A stretch of DNA of 29,097 nucleotides from a virus, in the IMG/VR virus record IMGVR_UViG_3300017748_000081, positions 1-29,097 of that record; one strand, given 5' to 3'. Under the pieces are notes generated by a model. The model was not told the origin of the DNA and did no database searches. It worked only from the letters and a program-made list of their open reading frames with translations. The position numbers and the translations under genes were made by a program. Positions 6,560 to 22,465 of this stretch are shown here, piece after piece (the stretch's first letter is position 1; the number at the start of each line of letters is the position of its first letter).

Positions 6560-6588
6560 TTGACAACTCTCTCTGGTTATGGTACATT
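6560..6588 (+). promoter_or_regulatory. Sigma-70-like promoter for the HExxH-VWA gene
   Basis: TTGACA (6560-6565), a 17-bp spacer and TACATT (6583-6588); RNA would start near 6595, giving a leader of about 24 bases. A perfect 9-bp inverted repeat, ACTCTCTCT (6566-6574) and AGAGAGAGT (6601-6609), brackets the -10 box and could be an operator. Confidence 0.6.
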
Positions 6589-6618
6589 ATAAGAGTAATT
6601 AGAGAGAGTGATTCGCAA

Positions 6619-8832
6619 ATGACAGTAAATATCCAATCCAAAGAAGTTCTTGCAAGATTGCTTGCTACCGAGAATATTAATGTCGAACATAAAAATGTCG
6701 GTACTGCAAGCTTTGATGTTAAGAATAGAAACTTAGTTCTTCCTTTGTGGGACGATATGCAGAACTTCACATACGATCATCTAGTTGGCCATGAAGTTGG
6801 CCATGCTTTATATACTGATGCTGATATGTGGGGTTCTGCAATTGATAAACACGGCAAGAACTTCAAAGGCTTTTACAATATTGTAGAAGATGCTAGAATA
6901 GAAAAGAAAATTCAAAGAGTATATCCTGGCTTAAAAAGATCTTTCATTCAATCATATAAGAAAATGTTAGCTGATGGTTTTTTTGGCAAGAGTGAAGATG
7001 AGATAAATAATTTCAAGCTAATCGACAGAATCAATGTTTACTTCAAGTGTGGTATGTCTACACCTGTTGATTTTGCTAAAGATGAAAAGAAGTGGTTAGA
7101 TATCATTTCTAAAATAGAAACTCAAGAAGATGCTGAGAAAGTTGCTCTTGAGTTATTTAAGTTAGCACAAGAAGAATTAGAGCAAGAGCAACAGGCTCAA
7201 AAAGAATTAGAAGAGGAGATGGAAGATGGATCCGATGACAACGATTTTGATTATGACGATGGTGACATGGGTGATGACGATTATAGTGACACTGAAGATG
7301 GAGACGATAGTTCTGAAGAATCAGATGAAGAAGGCGAAACTGAAAGTGTTAGCCAATCAGTAAGTGAAACTGAAGATGAATCAGAAGAAACAGAGGTTAC
7401 TGAAGTTCAATCTATCTCTGATGATATTACTTCTGGTTCTGGTACTTCTTTAGATCCTAATGCACCTATCGCAGTTACTGAACAAGCTTTAGAAAATAGT
7501 ATTGAAAAAGAATATAGTCAAGAAACTGATAAAAATATTACCAACATGTACTTAAACTTAAATGCTAAGTACCATGAAGATATTATCTGGGACTACAAAA
7601 AAGTTTTGAGTCTTGCTAAAAGTGATACTCTTGCCGCTGGCACCAAGATGTATAAAGATTTTCAAAGAAATAATAAAAAGACAATCAATTATCTTGTTAA
7701 AGAATTTGAAATGAAGAAGAAAGCGGCCGAGTATAAAAGAGCAACAGTTTCTAAAACTGGTGTTATTGATACACTCAAAATGAACAATCACAAATTTTCT
7801 GATGATATATTCAAGAAAATGACAGTGGTACCTGATGGTAAAAATCATGGCTTAATAATGTTTATTGACTGGAGTGGTTCAATGGCTAGTCAGTTGGGTA
7901 ACACTGTTGATCAGTTAATCAACTTAGTTAGCTTTTGCCGACAAGTTCAGATACCATTTCAAGTTTATGCTTTCAGTGATAATGACAAAGGTAGTGCTAC
8001 GCTTAGAGAGTCTTCAGATATTAGTCAGTTTAAAACTGGTGAAACACTTCATGGTGATCACTACCACTTGCTACAGTTCTTTGATGATAAAATGTCAAGA
8101 ACTGAGTTTCAAAAAATGTGTGCATTAACTCTTGCAGTTGGTAAGTACTGGGAGAATAGATATCGATTTGATCATAGATATGGTTCTTACAATGTTGATT
8201 ACAAACTATGGTTGTCAGGTACACCTTTGAATGATGCAATCATTTCTGCCCACCACTTAGTGGCAAAGTTTAAGAAAGTAAAAAGACTCGATATTGTCAA
8301 TACAGTTTTTCTTACTGATGGTGAGGGTTTCTATCAACACTATAAAAATGATAATGGAAATAGAAGTTACATTGGCTATGGTATCGATACTTTAATTATT
8401 CACAATCCCATCAACAAAAAGCAGTATAGAATTTCTAATGCTAGAAGAGGTGGTTATGGAGTTGATAATAGTGCAGTTACTAGAAACCTTATCAAGTCAT
8501 TAAGAGAGCATACAAATAGTAATGTTATCGGGTTTCATATTTTACCTAATAGAAAGCCTAGTGCAATACAAGCTTTACCAAGATCATTAGACTATTCTCA
8601 GAAAGAGAAAGTATTTGCTGAAATGAAAGCTTACAAGTTTGCAACTATTACAACTAATGGTTACACTAAGCAATTCACAATACTTGGTAATGATTTACAA
8701 ACTTCAAATGGTGCGATAGATGTTTCTGAAACTGCAACTACGGCTCAAATCAGAAACGCTTTCAAGAAAGCAAACAAGGGTAAAAAAGAAAGTAGAGTTA
8801 TGCTTTCAAAATTTATTGATTTAGTAGCTTGA
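6619..8832 (+). CDS. CobT-like protein: N-terminal HExxH metallopeptidase domain, acidic linker, VWA domain
   Basis: This 737-aa protein has three parts. Residues 1-190 hold H58-E-V-G-H62 plus a downstream NIVEDARIE motif (E90, D91), the layout of a gluzincin-type zinc peptidase. Residues about 190-265 are a very acidic Asp/Glu/Ser linker. Residues about 405-720 form a von Willebrand A domain with MIDAS D417-W-S-G-S421, T535 and D567-G568. Similar phage proteins are annotated as peptidase or CobT because cobaltochelatase CobT has a C-terminal VWA domain. The partner AAA+ gene follows directly. MoxR/VWA pairs generally act as ATP-driven chaperones or metal-insertion machines, so maturation or cleavage of a protein target is likelier than cobalamin synthesis. 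The zinc domain predicts proteolysis. The start has a weak GAGAGAG ribosome site. Confidence 0.85.
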   Translation: MTVNIQSKEVLARLLATENINVEHKNVGTASFDVKNRNLVLPLWDDMQNFTYDHLVGHEVGHALYTDADMWGSAIDKHGKNFKGFYNIVEDARIEKKIQRVYPGLKRSFIQSYKKMLADGFFGKSEDEINNFKLIDRINVYFKCGMSTPVDFAKDEKKWLDIISKIETQEDAEKVALELFKLAQEELEQEQQAQKELEEEMEDGSDDNDFDYDDGDMGDDDYSDTEDGDDSSEESDEEGETESVSQSVSETEDESEETEVTEVQSISDDITSGSGTSLDPNAPIAVTEQALENSIEKEYSQETDKNITNMYLNLNAKYHEDIIWDYKKVLSLAKSDTLAAGTKMYKDFQRNNKKTINYLVKEFEMKKKAAEYKRATVSKTGVIDTLKMNNHKFSDDIFKKMTVVPDGKNHGLIMFIDWSGSMASQLGNTVDQLINLVSFCRQVQIPFQVYAFSDNDKGSATLRESSDISQFKTGETLHGDHYHLLQFFDDKMSRTEFQKMCALTLAVGKYWENRYRFDHRYGSYNVDYKLWLSGTPLNDAIISAHHLVAKFKKVKRLDIVNTVFLTDGEGFYQHYKNDNGNRSYIGYGIDTLIIHNPINKKQYRISNARRGGYGVDNSAVTRNLIKSLREHTNSNVIGFHILPNRKPSAIQALPRSLDYSQKEKVFAEMKAYKFATITTNGYTKQFTILGNDLQTSNGAIDVSETATTAQIRNAFKKANKGKKESRVMLSKFIDLVA

Positions 8833-8856
8833 CATTTCTGCCAGTCCTGCTATTAT
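8829..8856 (+). promoter_or_regulatory. Sigma-70-like promoter for the MoxR/CobS-like gene
   Basis: TTGACA (8829-8834) begins in the last codons of the upstream gene; a 16-bp spacer leads to TATTAT (8851-8856), extended as TATTATAATA. RNA would start near 8863, leaving a leader of about 36 bases. The leader contains AGTGATTCG (8866-8874), the same 9-mer as in the leader of the upstream partner gene (6607-6615). Confidence 0.65.
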
Positions 8857-8898
8857 AATAGTGTAAGTGATTCGAATTTTTAATTGAGAGGTTATATT

Positions 8899-10095
8899 AT
8901 GATAAATTCAAAACAACAAGCTTTTGTCGATGCCGCTATTGACAAGTTTGGTACCGATAAAATCACATCGGCCCAAATCAAAGAAGTTCAAGCTATGGGG
9001 TTTCCTAAGCCGAACTTTCTTATTTACGATAAGAACTCTGATGGTTCTTGGACTTATAGAATTGGTAGAGGTTTATACCAGCTACCAGTTTCTGAAATTA
9101 AAACTGCAACTACAGTTGCTCCTACTGAAGTTGTTGAAGATACTACGGCTCAGGCCGCTCTGATGCCTGCTCCTAAAAAATCTTTGACTATGGATCATAA
9201 TGGTTTCACTGAGAATTTGATACCAGCTATCGATCCTCTTTTTGTTCCTTTTGGTAACTTCACCAAAATCAAAAAGATTGTTTCTTCTAGAATGTTTTAT
9301 CCTGTTTATGTTACTGGGTTATCTGGTAATGGTAAAACATTTGGTATTGAGCAAGCTTGCGCCCAAGCCAAAAGAGAAGTTATTCGAATCAACTTCACTA
9401 TCGAAACTGATGAAGATGATTTGATCGGTGGTTTTCGACTTGTCGATGGTGACACCAAGTTCTTCAAAGGCCCTATCATCAATGCGATGGAGAAAGGCGC
9501 CGTTGCTTTGCTTGATGAGTTAGACTTAGCTAACCCAGCCAAAGTAATGTGCTTACAATCAATACTTGAAGGCAAAGGTTACTTCATCAAAAAGACTGGT
9601 GAGTTTATCAAGCCCAAAGATGGTTTCACAGTAGTTGCTACTGCTAACACCAAAGGTAAAGGCTCTGACGATGGCCGATTTATCGGTACCAATGTGATGA
9701 ATGAGGCTTTCTTAGAAAGATTTCCTATCACTGTCGAGCAAGAGTATCCTTCACCAGCTATTGAGAAAAATATTCTCGGTAAAGTTTTCACTGACTTGAA
9801 TATTGTTGACGATGGTTTTGTTGGCAAGCTTGTAGATTGGGCTGACATTATCAGAAAAACTTTTGTTGATGGTGGTGTTGACGAGATTATCTCAACAAGA
9901 AGGCTAGTTCACATAGCAAAAGCTTTCTCAATATTCGATGACAAAATGACAGCCATCGATATGTGCATCAATCGATTTGACGAGGACACCAAGTTATCAT
10001 TTAAAGACTTGTATACCAAAATTGATATAGATGTTTCTTCTGAAACTGAAATACCTAACACTGCCGTTGAGAATGAAGAAGAAATACCATTCTAA
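8899..10095 (+). CDS. MoxR/CobS-like AAA+ ATPase
   Basis: This 398-aa protein starts at ATG 8899 behind GAGAGG (8886-8891, spacing 7); an in-frame TTG at 8884 overlaps that ribosome site and is rejected. Residues 1-60 form a small helical domain (FVDAAIDKFGTDKITSAQI...). The AAA+ core has Walker A G140-LSGNGK-T147, Walker B ALLDELD (D206, E207), sensor-1 N250 (VVATANTKG) and a probable arginine finger R274 (AFLERFPI). This is the MoxR/CobS clade, which works as a hexamer with VWA-domain partners. Marine T4-like phages commonly carry it as cobS. The VWA-peptidase gene lies directly upstream with a matching leader motif, so the two proteins probably form one machine. A terminator hairpin follows 20 bases after the stop. 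Confidence 0.9.
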   Translation: MINSKQQAFVDAAIDKFGTDKITSAQIKEVQAMGFPKPNFLIYDKNSDGSWTYRIGRGLYQLPVSEIKTATTVAPTEVVEDTTAQAALMPAPKKSLTMDHNGFTENLIPAIDPLFVPFGNFTKIKKIVSSRMFYPVYVTGLSGNGKTFGIEQACAQAKREVIRINFTIETDEDDLIGGFRLVDGDTKFFKGPIINAMEKGAVALLDELDLANPAKVMCLQSILEGKGYFIKKTGEFIKPKDGFTVVATANTKGKGSDDGRFIGTNVMNEAFLERFPITVEQEYPSPAIEKNILGKVFTDLNIVDDGFVGKLVDWADIIRKTFVDGGVDEIISTRRLVHIAKAFSIFDDKMTAIDMCINRFDEDTKLSFKDLYTKIDIDVSSETEIPNTAVENEEEIPF

Positions 10096-15464: not shown

Positions 15465-18400
15465 ATGGTTTACAGAAACAAAACATTTGCAAATAGTGTA
15501 GTTGTTGGTTTAAGTTCTGGAAAAGTTGAGTTAGCCGCTGATAGTGGAGATTTACTAATTAAATCTGGTGGCTCAACAGCAACAGTTCGTCCAGGACTAG
15601 GCATAGTAGAACAACAACCAGTTGTAATTATAGCTAACAAGGCGGCGTTGCCTTTGCCTCCTACAGGCATCACTAACGGAGCTTTATATTATACTACAGC
15701 ATCCAGTGAACTGTTTATGAAATCAGGAGGTGGTTGGTACAGAGTATCTATGGTAAATACAAGTCCATCAATAACTCTGAACAAAACTACGGCATCTATC
15801 ACTACATCTACTTTAACTTTAGATGTAAACTATACAACAGTAGAACCAGAAGGTACACCAGTCACTATTGCTTTAGCTAATTCAGGTATTGCTGATACAA
15901 ATGTAGCTACAATTACTCATACAACTGCAAACAATAATATACGAGTAGTGTTTGATGGTTCTACAGATTTATCAGATGCAACAATCACTGCAACTGTTAC
16001 AGATGGTGTAAATACGGGTGTAGGAACAATTACATTTAGTACTGCATATGCAGTGAAAGATTCAAGAAATACTCTTGTATTATTAAAAGCTAATTCAGAG
16101 GGTGGAGATAATTATACGTTCAGTGATCAATCTGATAGTAATCATACTATTACACCTACAGGATATGCCAGAACATCATCATTTAGTCCTTATCGTCCCA
16201 ACGGATATGCACAACACATAAACGGAGGTAGATATATTGATATAGCCGCCTCTTCTGATTTTTCTTTCTCAGGACAGTGGAGTGTAGAGTTTTGGTTCTG
16301 GGGAGATGAACAGCAATCTAGTTCAGGAACATCAGGTTGGCATGATGTGTTTCAAATTGGTAGTTCATACATGGAAATAAACAACGATGGGTATTGTGCA
16401 ACTGGCTCTAATATGTTTGGTTCTGTAGGTAGTAGTGTGAGTGGAGAAACACACCCAATACTCTGGAATCGTTGGAATCATATAGCATATACTAGAGATG
16501 GTAGTAATGTTGTACGTCACTATGTAAACGGAAGATACACAAACAAAGCTACAGTAACAGGAAGTGCTGGCTCATCTTCTAATGCACCTCGACTAGGTTT
16601 GTATACTAGTGAGGCGGCAGAGTGTTTCTTATATGATGTTAGAATATCAAATACAGCAAGATACACTAGTGAGTATGGTTTTGATTTACCCACTGCACCT
16701 TTTGAGAGTGACTCAAATACTATGGCTTTAGTTTGTACAGGTAGTATGCTAAAAGATTATGGGCCTAATAGTCATGCTGTTACTACGAATACTAGTGGTA
16801 CTGGTAAACAAATAGGACACACACCTTTTGATAGGGGTGCATATGATGTAAGCAAACATGGTAACTCAGCAATCATTACAAATGCACGTTCATCATCTTA
16901 CGTAAAGCTACCTCGCTCTGCTGATTTGTATGACTGGAATCCTTCAAGTAATCATTTTACATTAGAGTTTTGGTTATATAGTAGAGCATTTAGAGTAGGC
17001 TCGCCTAATAATTCACCTTGTGTATTTTCTCATGCAACCGGTTCAGATAATACTTTCTATTGGGGTTTTGGTACAAACACAAGTGGTAATCTATATTTTT
17101 ATTACTATAATGGTTCTGCTCAAACTATTACCGCCTCGACAACTATGTATACAAATCAGTGGTATCATTGTGCTTTTTATAAAGACAACTCTGGAAATAT
17201 AAAGATTTATTTGAATGGTGTTCAAGATGCAAGCACAACTGTTTCTGGAACACCTCAGACTAGTTCTAGCACTGACGTATGGATAGGAAGAGCCCAAAAT
17301 AATACAGTTGGTAATTTTAACATAGCTGATGTTAGAATTGTAAAAGGTGAAGCAGTTTATACTGGAGCATTCACACCACCAACTGGCCCACTCACAAAGA
17401 CTGGTGGCACGTATTCATCAACAACAAATGTCAACACAGGTATCACTGCATCAAATACTAAACTACTTCTAAACTTTCCTGCTGGTATAGAAGATTTAGG
17501 GCAATGTTCTGAACAGGTAGAATTTTATCAGTCAGATAGTACAGATGTAGAAGGTGATACAGGTGTAGTAAAATATGGTGGAAAGCCCACAATAAAAACT
17601 GATTTTAGTGCTGGTTTTACTTCTATACATACACCTCTTTTTGAATTGTATAACTCACCATGGACAATTGAGATGTGGGTACGTCTGACTCAAAGTGGAC
17701 AAGCAAGTATATTTTTTGATTCTGATGCAGGTACTTATGGTGGTAATCTTTCTGCAAGAATAGATTATGCAGATAGTAGTAGGATATTTTATACAGATTT
17801 AGGACTTTCAGCCAGTTACGCCTATACGAATAGTGAGATTGTATTTTTAAATACTTGGAATCATTTAGTCTTTCAGCAAAATCCTAGAAATATGAAAGAC
17901 AGTGAAAATGGCATATTAACAATATGGGCAAATGGTACAGTATTAGGTAGTATGAATGCACTTGACAAATATGCAAGTGCAACTGCTGATACTGCCACAT
18001 GGAATGCTTTAAGACTTCTAGGCGCACAAGGGCCAGGAGGAGGATATTCTGCATTTACAGGTAACTCACAAGATATTCGAGTTTCGTCTGGAGCAAGATA
18101 TCCATTTATGCCTGTAAATCAAACTCTCACAACAACTAACTCAGCAAGAACAGGTGTTACAGCAACTGGATCTAATACAAAACTTCTTGCATTCACTACA
18201 ACCACAACCACAACAGATGTAACAACTAATCATACAATAACATCTCAAGGTGATCCTACTGGTGTCAGTTGGGGTCCTGTAGCTGGTATGAAATCTGTTT
18301 ACTTAGATGGTACTGGAGATTATTTTACAATTCCTAATCATGCAGATTTTAATTTCGGTACAGGTGCCTATACAATAGAGTTTTGGATTAATACAAGACA

Positions 18401-18806
18401 AACTTACGCTTGGATTTTCTACAACGCTAACAGTAACACAGGTGTTAGAATATCTATAGGTAATGAAGCCTCCTCTAGTCCTGGACAAATATTCTTAAAT
18501 GAACAAGTAAGTAATAATAGTAGTAATTATTATTCTCATTGTAGAATAGATGATGGTTCTTGGCATCATGTAGCATTTTGTAGAGATGGTGTATCAAGAA
18601 GAGTATTTGTAGATGGTAAATTAGAACATAAAAACGCACTTACAAATAGAGATTTAGCATCTGGTACTGTAGGACACATAGGAAGAAAACAAGGCCTTGC
18701 TGATGCTACTCAGTTTAAAGGATACATTTCTAATTTTAGATGGATTAAAGGACAAGCCTTGTATGCAGAAACATTTACCCCTCCTTCTGCATTACTTACA
18801 GGTTAA
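15465..18806 (+). CDS. Giant LamG-repeat tail fibre / adhesin-like structural protein A
   Basis: This 1113-aa protein is built of modules. Residues 1-100 are a phage head module (VGLSSGKVELAADSGDLLI, YYTTASSELFMKSGGGWYRV). Residues about 101-200 are an Ig/cadherin-like domain (EPEGTPVTIALANSG). Four LamG/concanavalin-A-like domains follow at about 202-414, 415-645, 665-885 and 903-1113. Each repeats the SVEFWFWG/TLEFWLYS type strand, W.H.A..RD, a YVNG turn and a closing DVRIS..ARYTSEY or Y...F.PP motif. Such domains bind glycans or proteins, so it is probably a receptor-binding fibre or decoration protein; no chaperone or coiled-coil trimer motif is seen. There is only one base between the lysozyme stop and this ATG, and no clear ribosome site, which suggests coupled translation. 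A paralogue follows. Confidence 0.85.
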   Translation: MVYRNKTFANSVVVGLSSGKVELAADSGDLLIKSGGSTATVRPGLGIVEQQPVVIIANKAALPLPPTGITNGALYYTTASSELFMKSGGGWYRVSMVNTSPSITLNKTTASITTSTLTLDVNYTTVEPEGTPVTIALANSGIADTNVATITHTTANNNIRVVFDGSTDLSDATITATVTDGVNTGVGTITFSTAYAVKDSRNTLVLLKANSEGGDNYTFSDQSDSNHTITPTGYARTSSFSPYRPNGYAQHINGGRYIDIAASSDFSFSGQWSVEFWFWGDEQQSSSGTSGWHDVFQIGSSYMEINNDGYCATGSNMFGSVGSSVSGETHPILWNRWNHIAYTRDGSNVVRHYVNGRYTNKATVTGSAGSSSNAPRLGLYTSEAAECFLYDVRISNTARYTSEYGFDLPTAPFESDSNTMALVCTGSMLKDYGPNSHAVTTNTSGTGKQIGHTPFDRGAYDVSKHGNSAIITNARSSSYVKLPRSADLYDWNPSSNHFTLEFWLYSRAFRVGSPNNSPCVFSHATGSDNTFYWGFGTNTSGNLYFYYYNGSAQTITASTTMYTNQWYHCAFYKDNSGNIKIYLNGVQDASTTVSGTPQTSSSTDVWIGRAQNNTVGNFNIADVRIVKGEAVYTGAFTPPTGPLTKTGGTYSSTTNVNTGITASNTKLLLNFPAGIEDLGQCSEQVEFYQSDSTDVEGDTGVVKYGGKPTIKTDFSAGFTSIHTPLFELYNSPWTIEMWVRLTQSGQASIFFDSDAGTYGGNLSARIDYADSSRIFYTDLGLSASYAYTNSEIVFLNTWNHLVFQQNPRNMKDSENGILTIWANGTVLGSMNALDKYASATADTATWNALRLLGAQGPGGGYSAFTGNSQDIRVSSGARYPFMPVNQTLTTTNSARTGVTATGSNTKLLAFTTTTTTTDVTTNHTITSQGDPTGVSWGPVAGMKSVYLDGTGDYFTIPNHADFNFGTGAYTIEFWINTRQTYAWIFYNANSNTGVRISIGNEASSSPGQIFLNEQVSNNSSNYYSHCRIDDGSWHHVAFCRDGVSRRVFVDGKLEHKNALTNRDLASGTVGHIGRKQGLADATQFKGYISNFRWIKGQALYAETFTPPSALLTG

Positions 18807-18832: not shown

Positions 18833-21800
18833 ATGGTACAAAAATTATCTTACACAGCGAATAGTATTACACTAGGAACAGGCACAAGTAAAGTTGTTTT
18901 AGGTGCAGATAGTGGTAATCTAATTGTAAAAGATTCACAAGCAAATACATCTATAATAGAACCAGGACTTGGCATACAAGGTGCAGGTGCTGTTACAACT
19001 TATGCAAACTCTTCAGTGTTACCATTTTCGCCTATATCTCCAGCAGGCAGTTTAGCATATGCAACAGCAACTGGTACATTGTATATGTCTAATGGTTCTG
19101 GTTGGTATAAAATATCATTGATTAATACTGCGCCGTCAATTACTTTATCATCAACAGCGGCTAATCCAACTCTTGATGGTTTGACTTTAGATTTTACATA
19201 TACAGTAAATGAACCTGAAGGTACACCAGTAACTATTACTCTAGCTAACTCAGGTATTGCTACTACAGGTAATGTTGCGGTAACACATACAACAAGTAAT
19301 AATCATCTTCGTTTAGTATTTGATGGTACTACAGAGTATTCAGGAGATGCTACAGTAACATTAACTGTAACTGATGGTGTTAATACTGGAACAGGAACTA
19401 TAACAATTGACACTAACTACATATCAACAGTTAACAATTCAGCCAGAGCAGGTACTCTTTTAGTTGGTAATTATGTTGCTAACCAAGTTACAAATTGGGA
19501 TAGAGATGTTAAAGACGATGGCTCATCACCTTGGACGGCATCTCAAACAAAATTTGGTAAATACACATATACGGCAACACAAAATAATACTATTGACAAA
19601 AACCGTCCTAGAGAAGGTATTATGAGACTTGCTACTTCTCCTTATCAACCAAAAGGAACTTCTTACAGTTTTAGTACTTACTATAAGGGAAGAATAATGG
19701 TAAGGAATAAAGATACCACTTCCTTAGTTATGCCACAGTCAGGTAGTTGGACATTAGAAGGTTGGGCTGAACAAATGCAGTTTGGACAAGCTGGTAGTAA
19801 TTATAGTTCTGCTTCTGTGGCTTGGAATGCGATTATTGCCACAGAAAATTACGATGTTACTGGTGGTGGTATGGCTCTAGTTTTCAATGCTACGAGTAAA
19901 AAAATAGATCTTAGAGTTTCATCAGGTACATCAGATTCAGTTTTGATAGCTGGAAGTAATAAAATTACAAGAACAAATGTAACTAATAATTATAGTGGAT
20001 ATGCATTTGGAGCAACAACCACTGGTTGGGTTCATTGGGCTATTGTTAACAATAGTGGTACAATAACTTTGTATACGAACGGAAGATCAGAAGGTAGTGC
20101 TTCACAACCTTATGATTTCAATACTACTACTGGAGATTTAATGATTGGTTGTTCTAAGTATTATGCTGTAGGTAGTGGTAATGATGACATGTGTATCTTA
20201 CCTGGATATATAGCTGATGTTAGACTTGATAAAAGTGCTGTCTACACTTCTGAATTTGCTCCACCTAAAACTCATTTAGAACCTCTTTCAAATACTAAAT
20301 TTCATTTGCCATCTGCCCACAATAGAATAGCTGACAGAAGTACTATAGGACATCGTGTCGAAGGTTGGAGTACACAAAGTTGGGCAAATCATTTGTATGG
20401 AGCGACCCCAGTTGACGGATCACCTTATGATCATATAGCTTATGATCCAGCAGTACATGGTGGTAGCTACATGATAAACGGAAACAATGACGAAGCTATT
20501 ATACAATTTAATTCAACAGAAAGTTTTGCTGGAGATTTTTCAGTATCTTTTTGGTATATGCCAATAAACTTAAATGGTTTAGGAGAGTATGGCTATTTTA
20601 TTGGAATGGGATCAAATGGAAATGTAATTGGACTTGGAACTTATAAATCGAGTAGTACTTATTATTACAAAACAGCGTTAGCTGGTTCTACCATAAATCA
20701 TTCCAGTGGTTTTAATAATGGTTCTACAGAATCTGGCGGAAAACAGAATATGAAAGGTTGGCAATATGTTTGTATACAAAGAAGTAGTGGTTCAGTAACA
20801 TTTCATATTAATGGTGATCTACTAAGAACATCATCAAATAGTGATACTTTAAATGTTTCAAATTTGAGATGGGGAGGTAATGCTCAATCTACACAGTATA
20901 ATTATCTAAACGACATGTTAATTCTTTCAGATTTACATATTTTAAATGGATCAACTTTATCATCTACAGCACCGCCCACAGAACTAAGAGCAACTGGAAG
21001 TGCTATTCATCATTTAAAATGTAATGATATGGCATATTACAATACAGGAACAGGAGATATAAGCTTCTACTATAATCCTGATTATGCTATGAGATATAGT
21101 GGCACTGGAGCTGGACTAATTCAAACAGTTAATGATAGTCCTCCTGGATATAGTTTACATTCCATTGACTTTCCTGGAAGTGGTAATGGTGGGCAAGAGA
21201 ATTATGCCGGCGGACTTAGACTTAAAGGTCCTCAAAATCATAGATTTATGACAGATGCTTGGGGTGGAGAATCAGAGAAAAAAGGTGCTTTTACTGTTGC
21301 TTTTTGGTTTAAAGCTGGTGATGTTTCTGGAACACAAAGTTTGTACTACAACGGAACTACTGGAACTGATTCTCAAGATTGTGCCCTTCAAGTATATTTA
21401 AGTGGTAGTACATTAACTACTAAAGTTTGGAAAGAAGATAATTCCCTAGAGGGTACTATAACAAAATCTAGCATATCAGCAGATACTTGGTATTATGTCT
21501 CAGTTACTTTTAGTAATTTAGGTGCTGTTACTATGCATGTTGATGGAGTTCTACAAGGACGATTTAATCAGACAAGAGCTTTAAATAGTAATAGAAATTT
21601 TCCACTTCGTAACAATTATGTTTTTCTAGGAAGTAGAGCTAACAATAGTACTTCTAGTATGACTGAGGAATATAATGGACAGCTTACAGATGTCTTTCAA
21701 ATATGTCAGGCATATTATCCACAAAATATAGTTCCAACTGTTAGTTCTAAATCAAACTCTCAGTCACATGAAACTACTACAGCTTCAAATACTAAGTTGA

Positions 21801-22465
21801 TAGCCGCCAGTGGAAGTACTGTAACTACAGAAGGAACAGGAGATGGCACTCATACTATTTCTGCAATAGGTAGTCCAACAGTATCTAATTTTGCACCTCA
21901 AAGAGCGCCTGCTGGTTGGAAGTCAATATACTTTGATGGTACTAACGATGGACTTAGCGTGTCTGCACATGCTGACTGGCAAATGGGTTCGAGTGATGAT
22001 TTTTGTATTGAGTTTTGGTATTGGGCTGAAGACTGGCAGGGTTCAGGACACACTACTTTCTTTAACGTAGGAAATGGTTTTGGTTCTGCCGATTTCAAAA
22101 TATATAGAAACAGTGATCAAACGATTAAATTATGGAATGGTACTGCTAATGTGTTACAAACAAATACAGGAACTGTGGATCAAATAGATTCAGATTGGCC
22201 CTCCGTATATGCTTGGAATCATATCGCTCTTACTAGAAAAAGTGGAAAAGTTCTTCTATGGTATAATGGTTCGCCTTCACAAGTAGGAGACATAACAGGT
22301 AATACTGACGTTCTTAATGGTGGAACAGGAAACGTATTATACATCGGACAAGCTATCAATGGTACTCAGAGATTTAAAGGATATCTATCACAGTTTAGAT
22401 GGGTTAAAGGTGATTGTGTGTATGAAGAAAATTATACAAAACCAAGTAAGTCTCTTTTCTCATAG
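18833..22465 (+). CDS. Giant LamG-repeat tail fibre / adhesin-like structural protein B (paralogue of A)
   Basis: This 1210-aa protein has the same order as its neighbour: a head module (residues 1-100; VVLGADSGNLIVKDSQANTS, LYMSNGSGWYKI), an Ig/cadherin-like domain (NEPEGTPVTITLANSG), and four LamG/concanavalin-A-like domains at about 201-486, 487-724, 725-984 and 985-1210. The head and Ig-like parts are clearly homologous to protein A and similar at DNA level near 15842-15893 and 19208-19260. The LamG parts have diverged, and domains 1 and 3 are longer. It starts at ATG 18833 behind AGAGAG, 26 bases after protein A. Host-surface glycan binding is inferred. The two may form hetero-oligomers or serve alternative receptors. 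Confidence 0.85.
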   Translation: MVQKLSYTANSITLGTGTSKVVLGADSGNLIVKDSQANTSIIEPGLGIQGAGAVTTYANSSVLPFSPISPAGSLAYATATGTLYMSNGSGWYKISLINTAPSITLSSTAANPTLDGLTLDFTYTVNEPEGTPVTITLANSGIATTGNVAVTHTTSNNHLRLVFDGTTEYSGDATVTLTVTDGVNTGTGTITIDTNYISTVNNSARAGTLLVGNYVANQVTNWDRDVKDDGSSPWTASQTKFGKYTYTATQNNTIDKNRPREGIMRLATSPYQPKGTSYSFSTYYKGRIMVRNKDTTSLVMPQSGSWTLEGWAEQMQFGQAGSNYSSASVAWNAIIATENYDVTGGGMALVFNATSKKIDLRVSSGTSDSVLIAGSNKITRTNVTNNYSGYAFGATTTGWVHWAIVNNSGTITLYTNGRSEGSASQPYDFNTTTGDLMIGCSKYYAVGSGNDDMCILPGYIADVRLDKSAVYTSEFAPPKTHLEPLSNTKFHLPSAHNRIADRSTIGHRVEGWSTQSWANHLYGATPVDGSPYDHIAYDPAVHGGSYMINGNNDEAIIQFNSTESFAGDFSVSFWYMPINLNGLGEYGYFIGMGSNGNVIGLGTYKSSSTYYYKTALAGSTINHSSGFNNGSTESGGKQNMKGWQYVCIQRSSGSVTFHINGDLLRTSSNSDTLNVSNLRWGGNAQSTQYNYLNDMLILSDLHILNGSTLSSTAPPTELRATGSAIHHLKCNDMAYYNTGTGDISFYYNPDYAMRYSGTGAGLIQTVNDSPPGYSLHSIDFPGSGNGGQENYAGGLRLKGPQNHRFMTDAWGGESEKKGAFTVAFWFKAGDVSGTQSLYYNGTTGTDSQDCALQVYLSGSTLTTKVWKEDNSLEGTITKSSISADTWYYVSVTFSNLGAVTMHVDGVLQGRFNQTRALNSNRNFPLRNNYVFLGSRANNSTSSMTEEYNGQLTDVFQICQAYYPQNIVPTVSSKSNSQSHETTTASNTKLIAASGSTVTTEGTGDGTHTISAIGSPTVSNFAPQRAPAGWKSIYFDGTNDGLSVSAHADWQMGSSDDFCIEFWYWAEDWQGSGHTTFFNVGNGFGSADFKIYRNSDQTIKLWNGTANVLQTNTGTVDQIDSDWPSVYAWNHIALTRKSGKVLLWYNGSPSQVGDITGNTDVLNGGTGNVLYIGQAINGTQRFKGYLSQFRWVKGDCVYEENYTKPSKSLFS

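Follow-up and report, generated by a model that had tools for sequence, protein, structure and literature searches.

A predicted zincin-VWA protein and its CobS-like AAA+ ATPase partner in the replication module of a T4-like marine phage

How should a pair of phage genes be read when one of them is named after cobalt chelation and the other carries the signature of a zinc peptidase? This question is raised by a 29-kb virus fragment from IMG/VR (record IMGVR_UViG_3300017748_000081, positions 1 to 29,097; this whole stretch of 29,097 nucleotides is called the window below), in which P0001, a 737-aa zincin-VWA protein (6619..8832, + strand), is followed by P0002, a 398-aa CobS/MoxR-type AAA+ ATPase (8899..10095, + strand). 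The pair is already known as a typical feature of T4-like cyanophages and of pelagiphages: cobS has been listed as core in cyanophage surveys (PMC3037559) and pelagimyophages were reported with cobS and cobT (PMC7029224). The two published readings of the pair conflict. A MoxR ATPase paired with a metallopeptidase-VWA protein was described in group 2.2 jumbo phages and proposed to serve virion assembly with proteolysis (Iyer et al., 2021; PMC7824862), so that a protease-bearing MoxR-VWA phage machine is not a new proposal, both the architecture and the idea having been published for jumbo phages. Conversely, the pair in tailed viruses was read as CobST that hijacks the host CobN, and the 'peptidase' label of the cyanophage protein was called mistaken (Liu et al., 2021; PMC8651126). 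In this study the domain make-up, site conservation, zincin fold prediction, CobT/CobS homology, pairing, neighbourhood and promoter type were computed. From these we infer, with a probability of roughly 0.55, that the two proteins form a MoxR-VWA machine which remodels a host or replication-phase protein in the early or middle stage of infection and whose zincin domain is probably active.

P0001 starts with an ATG and is matched over residues 4-737 by the profile of phrog_459, a family labelled 'peptidase' (E 8.9e-187). All of its features lie on the + strand. The N-terminal zincin domain (residues 1-200, 6619..7218) carries HEVGH at residues 58-62 (6790..6804), where H58 and H62 are putative zinc ligands and E59 the putative catalytic residue, and NIVEDA at residues 87-92 (6877..6894), where E90 is the putative third ligand. 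An acidic linker (residues about 201-285, 7219..7473), mostly predicted to be disordered, leads towards a VWA domain (residues about 410-645, 7846..8553) with an intact metal-ion-dependent adhesion site (MIDAS), whose DWSGS segment (residues 417-421, 7867..7881) is completed by T535 (8221-8223) and D567 (8317-8319). This is the composition given in the initial annotation of the locus, and it was confirmed. Among 98 nonredundant relatives (<85% identity), H58, E59, H62, E90 and D91 are all intact in 97, in a sample that is partly biased by the patterns used to collect it: one of the two patterns in the viral scan contained the N87-E90-D91 stretch, and HEVGHAL was one of the two in the genome scan. 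Bias-free support comes from HExxH in the viral-contig loci and from both motifs in isolated phages found by tblastn. The sole exception among the 98 is a contig that begins past the N-domain, with the N-terminal region absent. Of these 98, 97-98 retain each of the MIDAS residues D417, S419, S421, T535, D567 and G568. A chance occurrence of HExxH in P0001 is ruled out by this conservation. A Pfam scan of P0001 returned no real domain match, and the same scan of 66 family members gave scattered weak matches only (CobT in 2, DUF2201_N in 1 and a PolyVal metallopeptidase in 1). The putative metallopeptidase family PF13203 (DUF2201_N) was considered as a cellular counterpart and dropped, alphaproteobacteria having given one match below the cut-off.

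The fold of the N-domain is predicted to be gluzincin-like, in agreement with the zinc-peptidase-like domain of the initial annotation. An AlphaFold2 model based on an alignment of 82 N-domains reached a mean predicted local distance difference test score (pLDDT) of 92.2 and a predicted template modelling score (pTM) of 0.87, and it places HExxH in helix 49-65 and E90/D91 in helix 80-101. When the model was compared with solved structures using Foldseek, the first 14 matches were all zincins (selecase, jannalysin, abylysin, PprI/IrrE and ArdC among them), the best eight with probabilities of 0.94-1.0. H58, H62 and E90 are putative ligands of a zinc site, and the domain is probably an active protease. 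Its top matches, the minigluzincins selecase, jannalysin and abylysin, differ in being small free-standing archaeal proteases, with template modelling scores (TM-scores) of 0.23-0.33 by query and up to 0.55 by target. The domain also recurs in viral structure predictions, where it belongs to phage proteins labelled CobT or VWA; haloarchaeal viruses and Gordonia phages are among their sources. The full-length model has a pLDDT of 80, with the linker disordered (pLDDT <50 at 203-275), and the top Foldseek matches of its VWA part are the NorD VWA in NorQD complexes (E 1.3e-5); the MIDAS domain of MDN1 was matched also.

The partner gene encodes an AAA_5/CbbQ_C ATPase that matches the phrog_249 profile (E 9e-118). 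The ATG at 8899 is its best start, the mechanical open reading frame (ORF) running from a TTG at 8884 and giving 403 aa. Walker A is GLSGNGKT (residues 140-147, 9316..9339) and Walker B is LLDELD (residues 204-209, 9508..9525). In an alignment of 91 CobS-like sequences G140, G143, G145, K146, D206-E207, the sensor-1 residue N250 and the putative arginine finger R274 (9718..9720, + strand like the Walker motifs) are invariant, which bears out the earlier description of a MoxR/CobS ATPase with all catalytic motifs. The nearest solved single-domain structure is CobS, with NorQ and CbbQ next. An intact-motif AAA+ ATPase thus adjoins a full-MIDAS VWA protein, as in a MoxR-VWA pair. The CobS-like gene was found at 78 of 101 loci of the VWA protein, downstream every time, and the remaining loci are mostly truncated. 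Record tallies for the two genes are identical (365 Synechococcus, 61 Cyanophage and 24 Prochlorococcus), an equality of counts; by these tallies the VWA protein is not missing where the close AAA+ protein occurs, and the consistent absence that would have separated the two genes was not seen. T4-like cyanophages (Kyanoviridae) and pelagimyophages have the same families (phrog_459/phrog_249) in the same order at the same gp46-gp45 site, and differ from the window by sequence divergence only (33-39% identity over the full VWA protein). Further away, a distant CobS-like ATPase occurs in Staphylococcus phage 676Z (locus L165, 5707-6825), and the ORFs adjoining this Kayvirus gene show neither HExxH nor a canonical MIDAS, which indicates that distant ATPase relatives can lack the VWA partner. 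A T4-like pair is also carried by a 188-kb contig in the bacterial assembly of Nonlabens xiamenensis, where it perhaps belongs to a resident or co-assembled phage.

Judged from profile comparisons, P0001 and P0002 are genuine homologues of CobT and CobS. Direct alignment of the T4-like family with cellular CobT is weak (hhalign E 0.001, probability 21%) and the T4-like profile found no CobT directly in the PDB. Homology was therefore chained through SSU5-like phage proteins, a second phage clade with members in, for example, Salmonella phage SSU5, Rhizobium phages and Roseobacter phage CRP-810. The T4-like N-domain matches this clade with E 1.8e-16, and the clade matches cellular CobT with E 1.3e-47 over the VWA part. 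Since the strong Pfam CobT match of SSU5 may reflect its use in building the model, we relied on CRP-810 instead, whose protein passes the Pfam cut-offs of both CobT domains. By this chain P0001 shares both the N-domain and the VWA domain of the CobT superfamily and is a member of it, which is a statement of homology and not of function. CobT was also sought in the phylum to which a Chloroflexi bin belongs, and none was obtained.

What separates the phage proteins from their cellular relatives is the zinc site. Of 26 phage proteins from several lineages that were aligned jointly with cellular CobT, 25 keep HExxH and 24 keep the whole set with E90-D91; the two that are not intact are ICP2, which keeps HExxH and has VDH where others have ED, and nickie, which has lost the site. 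In cellular CobT, HExxH is lost at the same columns in all 12 sequences aligned. The RGFLDHEVAH of SSU5 stands against RGxxDAxALR in CobT, and at these positions RGLGDSMALR is found in the solved CobT chains 9uka_G and 21vu_H. When the catalytic columns were excluded from tree building, cellular CobT formed one clade (100/100) beside CRP-810, whose site is intact (92/83). This tree is unrooted, the phage rows of GMA3 and ICP2 sit on long branches, and two state changes of the zinc site are needed, which can both be losses if the root lies outside CobT. We tentatively suggest, at slightly less than even odds, that cellular CobT is a pseudo-protease, the N-domain of which would derive from an active zincin-VWA co-chaperone of the phage kind and would have lost its site (HEVAH to A/S-x-x-x-R/K) on recruitment to B12 synthesis. 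If this is so, the phage pair would be the still-active machine and the origin of the CobT N-domain would be simply explained. No prior statement of cellular CobT as a site-dead relative of the phage protein was found in the literature searched, which lay mostly outside subscription journals, and priority is uncertain.

The setting of the pair bears on when it may act. As read from the translations, the genes of the window belong to a T4-like marine myovirus and make up its replication module (gp47, gp46, gp45, gp44, polymerase gp43, UvsX and gp41), to which Pfam adds a clamp-loader A subunit and Hsp20, and the gp43 product is closest to Synechococcus phages with 52% identity. P0001 and P0002 lie between gp46 and gp45. 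In every lineage viewed the pair adjoins replication genes: gp46/gp45 for most T4-likes, gp43-UvsX-gp41 for DLP6, a DNA ligase with a DNA polymerase for SSU5 and for nickie, a polymerase for Cyrano and the Rhizobium phages, and a primase for ICP2.

Consensus matches place sigma-70-like promoters upstream of both the VWA gene (TTGACA-17-TACATT, 6560..6588, + strand) and the AAA+ gene (TTGACA...TATTATAAT, 8829..8859, + strand), followed on the same strand by two copies of a leader 9-mer, AGTGATTCG, at 6607..6615 (3 nt upstream of the VWA gene start) and 8866..8874. The initial annotation had taken the promoters and the 9-mer together as signs of co-timing. Most of the remaining intergenic spaces in the window hold a TTGACA site as well, and a special link of the pair through these promoters was rejected. 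The shared 9-mer is real: three copies were observed in the window against 0.11 expected, it is kept upstream of both genes in relatives with a protein identity of about 63%, and a 146-kb relative has seven copies against 0 for a reversed-pattern control. In that relative the readable copies outside the pair lie between a TTGAC promoter of similar kind and a small unknown ORF downstream. The 9-mer is part of a longer promoter-leader, in which TTGAC and a spacer, often with TGCTAT..TAATA.TGTA, come before AGTGATTCG (in the window and at loci L166-L172 in the 146-kb relative of L008). The pair and the several small unknown ORFs that share this element likely form a small phage regulon. Across 120 kb of the 146-kb relative, the T4-type late promoter TATAAATA was found upstream of ORFs interpreted as genes for tail sheath, major capsid, tail tube and fibre. 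With a sigma-70-like leader on the pair and TATAAATA on structural genes, the pair looks early or middle and not late. The timing of cobS was sought in cyanophage transcriptome papers and none was found in the literature searched.

In the mechanism that we favor, the CobS-like AAA+ ring of P0002 would work with P0001 as its CobT-superfamily partner. The VWA/MIDAS part would dock on the ring in the manner of NorQ-NorD and CobS-CobT, and the zincin domain, tethered by the linker, would bind zinc via H58, H62 and E90 and cut the protein that the ring remodels. The pair would be made early or middle and would act on a host or replication-phase protein; it would serve neither cobalt insertion nor chiefly the virion. 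Several observations weigh against this mechanism. At 7 of the 101 loci at least 3 kb of downstream sequence is present, and the CobS gene either was not seen on the contig or lies beyond reach. The Foldseek E-values of the N-domain against solved zincins are modest (0.03-0.5) with low TM-scores, and the promoter classes are consensus matches. Finally, Pseudomonas phage nickie (locus L158, 3010-5094) encodes a CobT-like protein in which SEISK replaces HExxH, with the VWA domain and the CobS neighbour kept. A pair retained after loss of the zinc site indicates that proteolysis is not always needed, and nickie is a natural test of that need.

A non-cutting role is also worth weighing, in which the zincin domain would be a structural or binding module that holds metal or a partner and the pair would be a pure MoxR-VWA chaperone. 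Cellular CobT, like nickie, keeps the domain without the site, and PDB entry 21vu holds a CobS fragment together with the CobT N-domain, hinting that the N-domain docks on the ATPase. The general base E59, dispensable for metal binding, is however retained alongside the ligands wherever a T4-like member is complete, and we regard this role as unlikely. A further alternative, argued in print, is that the pair is CobS/CobT proper and that the phage subunits join either a host CobN or a ChlH-like subunit for cobalt insertion, which would supply more cobalamin for nucleotide synthesis (PMC8651126). The homology to CobS and CobT is true, the ATPase and VWA partner being paired as in the aerobic cobaltochelatase CobNST, and CobN-type proteins are present in both cyanobacterial genomes tested, so host CobN is available in some hosts. 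Yet the zinc motif is kept in the phage proteins and lost in the cellular CobTs, and the phage pair widely misses the equivalog cut-offs, scoring 10.2 against 759 bits for TIGR01651 (CobT) and 81.3 against 558.6 bits for TIGR01650 (CobS). CobN is absent from the window and from 14 pair-carrying phage genomes or long contigs, which comprise four viral contigs of 146-156 kb and ten sequenced phages. To our knowledge, SAR11 and enterobacterial hosts are without CobN although the pair occurs in phages that infect them, and on this account CobN hijacking is an unlikely role for the family as a whole. Cobalt insertion by the phage pair is therefore quite improbable. The initial annotation had called the CobS/CobT name misleading; as a name for function it is indeed doubtful, while as a statement of descent it is correct. 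In the control genome of Caulobacter vibrioides a profile match was obtained for CobT (PF06213) and none for CobN (PF02514), and CobT may occur in cells without CobN.

A role in the virion has also been proposed, with the ring and VWA adaptor remodelling structural proteins that the zincin trims; the proposal cites a precedent in Acidianus two-tailed virus (PMC7824862). The group 2.2 jumbo phages resemble the present pair in architecture and gene pairing as described there, a likeness at the level of description, and the domain make-up is compatible with such a device. However, the pair lies within the replication module in every lineage viewed, and the late TATAAATA promoters upstream of structural genes in the relative are of another type than those of the pair; we consider virion assembly or maturation very doubtful. 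The initial annotation leaned to this side when it envisaged an ATP-gated maturation or proteolysis device. The predicted zincin N-domain, the MoxR-partner-like VWA domain and the joint occurrence of the two genes are supported; virion maturation is disfavored. The remodelling machine with a probably active zincin also has cellular parallels in the NorQ-NorD and CbbQ-CbbO activators. The VWA fold of P0001 is nearest to NorD bound to NorQ and P0002 is related to NorQ and CbbQ, although pairwise similarity is distant. We know of no report of a zincin domain in the NorD or CbbO partners.

Two other features of the window are worth recording. An ORF at 4248-5165 matches PF20691, a TET-associated glycosyltransferase (E 8e-43), which suggests hypermodified phage DNA. 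Within the replication module, two adjacent large proteins (15465-18806 and 18833-22465) have four Laminin_G_3 domains each and are probably virion surface or fibre proteins.

The pair is found in hundreds of sequenced marine phages and is commonly listed among vitamin-B12 auxiliary metabolic genes. If it is instead an ATP-driven protease, a widely quoted 'metabolic' gene of phages would have been misread, and a common step in cyanophage and pelagiphage infection would become testable by single-residue mutants.

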